From: Spirosoma montaniterrae
Lineage (GTDB): Bacteria; Bacteroidota; Bacteroidia; Cytophagales; Spirosomataceae
Assembly (NCBI RefSeq): GCF_001988955.1
Contig: NZ_CP014263.1
Coordinates: 2,852,001 to 2,916,000, forward strand
DNA length: 64,000 nt
Direction of reading: 5' to 3'
In this document: positions 58,913 through 62,674 of the stretch, one piece after another
Numbering within the stretch: the first letter of the stretch is position 1
Layout of the letters: the number at the start of each line of letters is the position of its first letter
Position numbers and translations under genes: made by a program
The notes under the pieces: generated by a model
The model's database searches: none
What the model was told of the DNA's origin: nothing
The model's input: only the letters and a program-made list of their open reading frames with translations

Positions 58913-59019
58913 GATGGAACACGGATTTAACGGATGCGACGGATTCAGCACGGATTTCTTTTGCCTTTAGAATAAAAATCTGTGTTGATCCGTCTCATCC
59001 ATTAAATCCGTGTTCCATC
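58913..59019. repeat. Inverted repeat, CACGGATTTAACGGAT word, copy 1
   Basis: Arm 58913-58957 (GATGGAACACGGATTTAACG and on) faces arm 58978-59019 (ATCTGTGTTGATCCGTCTCA and on). It fills the gap between the GH65 gene and the GxxExxY gene, whose TGA stop (59018-59020) overlaps the arm end. Confidence 0.95.
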
Positions 59020-59413
59020 ATTTTTTTAAATTTTTTCGGTCGTTGGTGAATATTATCCGTTTGAATTCGGGTTTCTTGCCAAAATTGAGCAGTAGGCCAA
59101 CCTCCATAGTTGTAGCTCGCAGATAATTCATCAATTGAATTTCATGCTCTTCAGCCAGTGTTTCACAAGCTTTGAGTTCAAGAATTACGCAATTTTCTAC
59201 CAGAATATCGGCAAAATAATCGCCTACCTGTGTGCCTTTGTAATGCACTTTGATTTGCTTCTGCGCTTCTACTTCATATCCCTCATTCTTCAACTCAATG
59301 TATAGAGCGTTCTGATACACCCGCTCCAGGAAGCCGTACCCTAACTCATTGAAAACCGCATAATACGACCCAATAATGGCATCGGTTAACTCTTTATGCA
59401 GCAAGCGCGACAT
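59018..59413 (-). CDS. GxxExxY protein with PD-(D/E)XK-like signature
   Basis: A 131-residue protein with the family-naming motif G27-F-L-E30-R-V-Y33 in ELGYGFLERVYQNALYIEL. A nuclease-like core follows: D69 in GDYFADILVENCVI and E79-L-K81 in LELKA. These match the D-xn-(E/D)-x-K pattern of PD-(D/E)XK enzymes. It ends in a Lys-rich tail. The biochemical role of the family is not established. The gene is placed exactly between two direct copies of one arm of the CACGGATT repeat (58978-59019 and 59419-59460): the stop codon is in one copy and the start codon is five bases from the other. It interrupts an otherwise sugar-related operon and looks like a passenger or mobile unit. Confidence 0.85.
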   Translation of the reverse strand: MSRLLHKELTDAIIGSYYAVFNELGYGFLERVYQNALYIELKNEGYEVEAQKQIKVHYKGTQVGDYFADILVENCVILELKACETLAEEHEIQLMNYLRATTMEVGLLLNFGKKPEFKRIIFTNDRKNLKK

Positions 59414-59418
59414 TGTTT

Positions 59419-59460
59419 ATCTGTGTTAATCCGTCTAATCCGTTAAATCCGTGTTCCATC
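59419..59460. repeat. Single arm of the CACGGATTTAACGGAT repeat, direct copy flanking GxxExxY
   Basis: ATCTGTGTTAATCCGTCTAA and on is a direct copy of 58978-59019 with 39 of 42 identical bases, on the other side of the GxxExxY gene. No opposing arm accompanies it. malK ends six bases further on. Confidence 0.95.
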
Positions 59461-60594: not shown

Positions 60595-60732
60595 ACCCCA
60601 CCCCAACCCCTCCCCGTTAGGGAGGGGCAAGTGCAAGAGACATTTATTTTATTCAGGCAATGTAGTTGGTTAGAAATTAAGCTATTGCTTCTACTTGCCC
60701 CTCCCTAATGGGGAGGGGCCGGGGTGGGGTTT
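60595..60732. repeat. Inverted repeat, ACCCCAACCCCTCCCCGTTAGGGAGGGG word
   Basis: Arm 60595-60632 (ACCCCACCCCAACCCCTCCC and on) faces arm 60695-60732 (CTTGCCCCTCCCTAATGGGG and on) across about 62 bases. Each arm also holds its own small palindrome (CCCTCCCC..GGGGAGGG type). It fills the gap between malK and the malG-like gene, and its right end overlaps the malG stop codon. One arm is found again inside the FG-GAP gene at 31903-31934. Confidence 0.93.
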
Positions 60733-61555: not shown

Positions 61556-61664
61556 GGAACACGGATTTTACGGATGGGACACATAAACACGGATTTCTTT
61601 CTTTGCCATTACAGAGTAAATAAAAATCTGTGTAAATCCGTAACATCCGTTAAATCCGTGTTCC
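61556..61664. repeat. Inverted repeat, CACGGATTTTACGGAT word, copy 2
   Basis: Arm 61556-61596 (GGAACACGGATTTTACGGAT and on) faces arm 61625-61664 (AATCTGTGTAAATCCGTAAC and on). It lies between the malF- and malG-like genes and fills the gap. Confidence 0.95.
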
Positions 61665-62563: not shown

Positions 62564-62674
62564 GGAACACGGATTTAACGGATAAGACGGATTGACACGG
62601 ATTTATTTTCTGTCGTTACGGAGTAAATGAAAATCCGTGTTTATCCGCAGAATCCGTAAAATCCGCGTTCCATC
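62564..62674. repeat. Inverted repeat, CACGGATTTAACGGAT word, copy 3
   Basis: Arm 62564-62604 (GGAACACGGATTTAACGGAT and on) faces arm 62631-62674 (AAATCCGTGTTTATCCGCAG and on). It lies between the substrate-binding gene and the malF-like gene. The TGA stop of the former (62673-62675) overlaps the arm end, as in the GxxExxY gene. Confidence 0.95.

Follow-up and report, generated by a model that had tools for sequence, protein, structure and literature searches.

The GxxExxY gene and its arms at the locus

The window, i.e. the whole stretch of 64,000 nucleotides of Spirosoma montaniterrae DNA analysed here, carries on its minus strand (59018..59413) a gene for a GxxExxY protein of 131 aa with a PD-(D/E)XK nuclease fold, assigned by TIGR04256, PF13366 and an AF2 model, and neighboured by GH65 and MalK-type ABC genes. 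Profile searches gave 142 bits with TIGR04256 (cut-off 35) and 147 bits, over the curated cut-off, with PF13366 (PDDEXK_3); these were the only matches, with none to a transposase. The AF2 model (pLDDT 93.8) has a restriction-endonuclease-like fold, the nearest folds being the DNA nucleases MGME1, LHK and lambda exonuclease. The VIA-align list contained neither an HUH fold nor that of a transposase, an absence that in itself excludes nothing, and a search of the PDB by sequence returned one chance match (E 1.2). The PD-(D/E)XK active-site residues D69, E79 and K81, together with E30 and Q93, are invariant in 88 of 88 proteins. By profile and residues, the protein is a member of the PD-(D/E)XK nuclease superfamily, with a predicted nuclease activity. 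Judged from substitutions, the gene is shown to be under strong purifying selection, with dN/dS of 0.00-0.08 in seven distinct pairs.

Relatives of the protein are numerous, as 7,995 of the 7,998 candidates scored had E <= 0.001, and matches were present in 107 of 150 genomes of the family Spirosomataceae. They are rarely carried by plasmids (8 of 72,556 records at E 1e-5), and none was found in 50,697 phage records at the same threshold.

In regard to the surroundings of the gene, an earlier note on this DNA had described a 42-bp arm on the plus strand (58978..59019), repeated directly at 59419..59460, with the gene fitted exactly between the copies. This was confirmed: the two arms are identical at 39 of 42 positions, the stop codon lies within the first, and the start codon is 5 bases from the second. 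A further arm on the minus strand (58913..58960) is inverted to both direct arms (inverted repeats I10 and I11) and, as seen from inverted repeat, identity and folding, 58978-59019 is its hairpin partner. The arm at 58913-58960 therefore represents the outer end of the gene-bearing unit, which spans 58913-59460 and includes a complete hairpin beside the gene. Two gene-less hairpins of the same family, recognised by inverted repeat and folding, are located between two ABC permease genes (61556..61664) and between the permease and solute-binding protein genes (62564..62674). Both are as the note had placed them, but its count of two falls short, the genome holding dozens. All three hairpins of the window fold as single-stranded DNA far better than 200 shuffles (z -10.3, -6.5 and -7.4).

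A search of the window against Rfam gave no match at gathering score, and the window contains no rRNA. Simple terminators were rejected as an explanation, with 6 terminator-like sites against 5.3 in shuffles. Separately, another long inverted repeat, rich in C, was observed between the MalK-like and permease genes (60595-60730), with 43-nt arms, 88% complementary, and 50 nt between them.

The repeat family in the genome and in close relatives

Three spaced ATCCGT cores were matched 57+51 times in the 5.8 Mb genome, giving 108 arms, and 58+56 times (114 arms) when the third spacer was loosened. Chance origin was rejected on comparison with the reversed pattern, which gave 1+0 and 2+2 matches, respectively. 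Among 100 listed arms, 74 form 37 hairpins and 26 are single. In 21 fully read hairpins (42 arms), conservation was 0.94 in the cores and 0.56 in the spacers, and the loops, 10-38 nt long, were unrelated by eye, with the exception of some likeness between the two gene-less hairpins of the window. Spacers of the two arms of one hairpin match each other at 0.671, compared to 0.447 for shuffled arms (sd 0.028). Furthermore, 7 of the 37 hairpins have two arms without a single difference in their 25 bases, yet no two of these seven hairpins are alike. The agreement of spacers within hairpins and the differences among identical-arm pairs thus indicate that cores and pairing are kept and the rest is rewritten.

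In the close relatives G002 and G038, which align at about 90% in the compared stretches, three gene-bearing sites were compared. At the first, the gene is present in both genomes, inverted between its CAGGAT arms. At the second, G002 has the complete order of arm, gene and arm, and G038 is without most of the gene: its left arm is retained, but only half of the right one, and of the gene itself a few bases at the 3' end. At the third, G038 carries a short GxxExxY gene between ACGGAT arms, and in G002 the left arm and a gene fragment remain, beside a hairpin of another type. The comparison thus shows two sites at which the gene was lost while arms were retained, and another at which it was inverted between them. 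The search for clean empty sites of hairpins with the 9-10 nt period, over about 300 kb of synteny between G002 and G038, found none. In G121, the ABC operon, with no GxxExxY match in its 12-kb stretch, was set aside as an empty-site comparison because it is too distant, with orthologues 50-69% identical.

Several other differences were seen between G002 and G038. When L332-L346 of G002 were compared with L347-L361 of G038, hairpins at about four orthologous sites tended to have the core GAGTGAAT in G002 and GAGTGAAA in G038, and strict matches of the GAGTGAAA type number 1 in G002 against 11 in G038 over about 300 kb; dispersed cores seem to change together between the two. Other sites hold hairpins of different families. 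In addition, G002 has a hairpin of the TCATTCCGACGAAGGAGGAAT type, about 100 nt long (L093:12496-12597), that is absent at the matching place in G038 (L091:3865-3881); here a member of another repeat family has recently been gained or lost.

Arms at other GxxExxY loci and at S23 genes

Each of the genome's four GxxExxY genes is enclosed by inverted arms, and the arm sequence differs from gene to gene. At the three besides the window's (L001, L002 and L004) these are arms with GCAGAG cores, arms with ACAGAG cores and, flanking the gene on either side, a TGATTCGTCGGATTC hairpin, with scores of 16, 18 and 24, respectively, where the score compares the 200 bases upstream with the reverse complement of the 200 bases downstream. 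The L004-type repeat has 20 arms in its own genome, four of them at the gene, and 4 matches in 35 other Spirosoma genomes.

The same score was applied to two larger sets, for which several thresholds are reported, since they were picked after the scores had been seen. Among 40 same-family genes, hand-picked from the best-scoring matches and mostly on long contigs, a score of at least 14 was reached by 28, at least 16 by 23 and at least 18 by 20, compared to 5, 2 and 1 of 462 control ORFs from the same stretches. For 76 named loci (the best 80 of 552, nearest the window's clade, less 4 dropped as too near a contig end), the corresponding numbers were 56, 51 and 47, against 5, 3 and 1 of 235 control ORFs. 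These loci span 15 named phyla, 4 loci being unnamed, with names as given in the sequence records, many of which come from metagenome bins; they include Bacteroidota, Planctomycetota, Chloroflexota, Verrucomicrobiota, Myxococcota, Acidobacteriota and Fusobacteriota, and some phyla are without arms. Detectable inverted arms were absent from 12 of the 40 and 20 of the 76 loci, and a 68% relative from Spirosoma spitsbergense (L104) is among these misses. Enclosure as a general property of small genes was rejected, as 8 of 1,094 other ORFs of 70-500 aa had a score of at least 15. The expectation that such genes are flanked by arms far more often than other ORFs was therefore borne out, but not the expectation of CACGGATT-type arms in general, as the cores differ between GxxExxY lineages. 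As a separate observation, a Bacteroides finegoldii record labelled as a plasmid holds a GxxExxY gene with CACAGAG-type arms between radA and a gene for an FAD-dependent protein (L274:3983-4357).

Among 145 loci read, 108 had arms; the stop codon lies within the downstream arm in 33 of these and 0-30 bases before it in 41, at a median distance of 5.5 (the gene ends of L254 and L260 are uncertain). The self-match of the arms is 0.395 at lag 9 and 0.342 at lag 10, compared to 0.273 in shuffles (sd at most 0.009), and 77 of 100 arms match themselves best at one of these two lags, or 75 of 101 once duplicates are removed. The arms of GxxExxY loci are thereby shown to consist of a short core repeated every 9-10 nt. 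As the locus sets overlap, they reduce to 138 unique genes, 102 with arms. Across these 102, arm likeness correlates with protein identity (rho 0.345, at most 0.163 in 500 permutations). The correlation holds for pairs below 60% identity (0.285 vs 0.177) and is not significant below 50% (0.131 vs 0.155) or below 40% (0.012 vs 0.133). On a quick protein tree of 97 genes, motif classes defined by simple patterns change 19 times, compared to 32-36 times in 200 shuffles, with the 5 of 102 genes classed as "other" left off. Core type is shown to follow the GxxExxY protein lineage.

Two of the eight enclosed other ORFs resemble four-helix-bundle S23 proteins (L094:4957-5319 and L180:1400-1759), the first confirmed by a TIGR02436 search and the second by reading alone. 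When the best TIGR02436 gene was taken from each of 30 genomes (L362-L391) and one locus dropped, inverted arms were found at 23 of 29 usable loci, compared to 1 of 379 windows of equal size. Their arms have a strict 7-nt period (0.649 at lag 7 and 0.622 at lag 14, about 0.32 in shuffles; 20 arms). The arm period is therefore not the same in the two protein families, being 7 nt for S23-type and 9-10 nt for GxxExxY arms. An S23 ORF enclosed by inverted repeats is a known feature of 23S rRNA intervening sequences, according to the accessible part of PMC4990558, and literature searches found no report of periodic arms at S23 ORFs.

A possible repeat-and-enzyme partnership

On slight balance, we favour the view that GxxExxY genes and their phased palindromes form a partnership like that of REPINs and RAYTs, served by an unrelated PD-(D/E)XK enzyme. 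The gene-bearing unit would be the arm-gene-arm structure. As the cores are lineage-specific, the simplest inference is that the nuclease recognises the arms; it could bind the cores, spaced 9-10 nt apart, on hairpin or cruciform DNA and nick or trim it, after which repair may copy, invert or lose the elements. Gene-less hairpins would then be non-autonomous descendants persisting between genes. Cutting and copying by the protein, and copying of hairpins to new sites, are suggested by the fold and by analogy with RAYTs. The REP/RAYT-like logic proposed in the earlier note is well supported by the general association, the lineage-matched arms, the extragenic gene-less copies and the gene loss within retained arms, but one gene-less genome and two further motifs, described below, do not follow it.

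The window motif flanks a GxxExxY gene in 4 of 36 Spirosoma genomes, exactly those with a relative of at least 62% identity; in one of them (G165) the motif is present and no inverted-repeat alignment was found. Elsewhere in these four genomes it has 111, 41, 27 and 10 copies, compared to at most 14 in the 32 others. Copy number thus rises with the cognate gene, as the note had expected (p 0.0007, or 0.0027 without the genome of the window, which chose the motif). However, for two other motifs, each with a cognate gene in 8 genomes and without it in 28, the difference was not significant (medians 53.5 vs 13, p 0.14 for motif C; 10 vs 4.5, p 0.11 for motif B). Repeat-rich genomes devoid of the gene, which the note had held to speak against its reading, were encountered in part: G146 has 78 CAGGAT-type (C-type) arms and no GxxExxY match. 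This weakens the partnership reading without excluding it, because REPINs also remain, in lower number, in E. coli genomes without RAYT, as stated in the accessible text of PMC8049555.

Alternatively, the hairpins could act at the RNA level as elements of transcript processing or stability, the protein binding or cutting hairpin RNA, its own mRNA included, and the whole being tolerated like 23S rRNA intervening sequences. We regard this as unlikely, yet several observations agree with it. According to a simple ORF caller, no ORF contains any of the 21 read hairpins, 19 of them come to within 20 bases of an ORF end, or overlap it, on one side or both, and 16 lie between codirectional genes; moreover, spacers co-vary between both arms, and the available part of PMC4990558 provides a precedent in an intervening sequence whose ORF between inverted repeats is cut out by RNase III. 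On the other hand, the nearest folds are those of DNA nucleases, and inversion of the gene between its arms in one relative is a DNA event, even if ordinary recombination could suffice for it. It is quite improbable that the protein is a DNA-binding autoregulator or host factor, with operator-like arms and with dispersed copies as selected binding sites instead of replicating elements. Conserved cores with variable spacers and unrelated loops, as well as the very low dN/dS, would suit such a role, but closely related genomes differ in presence, the gene has been lost from within its arms, and window-motif sites are not shared in numbers by different species. Finally, we give little credence to hairpins arising from another mobiliser or host replication errors and merely enclosing GxxExxY genes: a repeat-rich genome may be without the gene and hairpins of several other families are common in the compared genomes, but core type tracks the GxxExxY lineage across phyla and other ORFs in the same stretches are seldom enclosed.

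The partnership that we favour shares with REPIN/RAYT systems a small nuclease gene that has extragenic palindromic repeats of the matching type as neighbours, dispersed inverted pairs whose loops vary, and rarity on plasmids. In contrast, RAYTs are a family of tyrosine (HUH) transposases, the GxxExxY gene sits inside the palindrome, arm cores recur every 9-10 nt, and genomes hold several GxxExxY genes with different cores. Because the enzyme comes from another superfamily, the system is not a member of REPIN/RAYT. Co-evolution of repeat and protein sequences and persistence of repeats in gene-less genomes are described there as well, in the accessible portions of PMC3116915 and PMC8049555.

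With 23S rRNA intervening sequences (PMC4990558, in its accessible part), the common feature is a small ORF between terminal inverted repeats, a layout also present at TIGR02436 genes outside rRNA. The protein, however, is unrelated, GxxExxY genes lie between protein genes, and the period is 9-10 nt instead of 7; identity with these sequences was ruled out by the GxxExxY protein itself, the protein-coding neighbours and the lack of rRNA in the window. MITEs and insertion sequences resemble the system in having gene-less inverted-repeat elements and, at one site, an internally deleted gene-bearing element, but no empty site was seen in the roughly 300 kb mentioned, and spacers and loops vary among copies as the cores stay. 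RecB/Cas4-like nucleases share the fold and the invariant E, D, ExK and Q residues; the GxxExxY protein differs in its 131 aa, its encoding inside a palindrome and the lack of any visible iron-sulphur or helicase part. In this context, SSO0001 is Cas4-like, and QxxxY is a motif name.

Literature searches, mostly covering papers outside subscription, found none linking GxxExxY to repeats, and six repeat strings were met in a single PCR primer, in the accessible part of a Bacteroides paper (PMC3090145). A repeat-and-enzyme partnership of this kind looks like one not described before. It is also conceivable, if somewhat short of probable, that protein-matched palindromes are a general bacterial class, in which unrelated small proteins own hairpin families with family-fixed core spacing and letters co-evolving with the lineage, and in which the protein would read the phased cores as an oligomer and drive their upkeep, rewriting and genome-wide spread. 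The period rule, if it holds for further protein families, would raise the standing of the whole class. Because the core letters vary by lineage, swapping of arms would be a direct test of specificity. If true, the proposed partnership would provide a substrate and a way of life for a protein family that is very common but has no known role. It would also account for hairpin repeats in large number and suggest that a REPIN/RAYT-like lifestyle has arisen again with a different enzyme.
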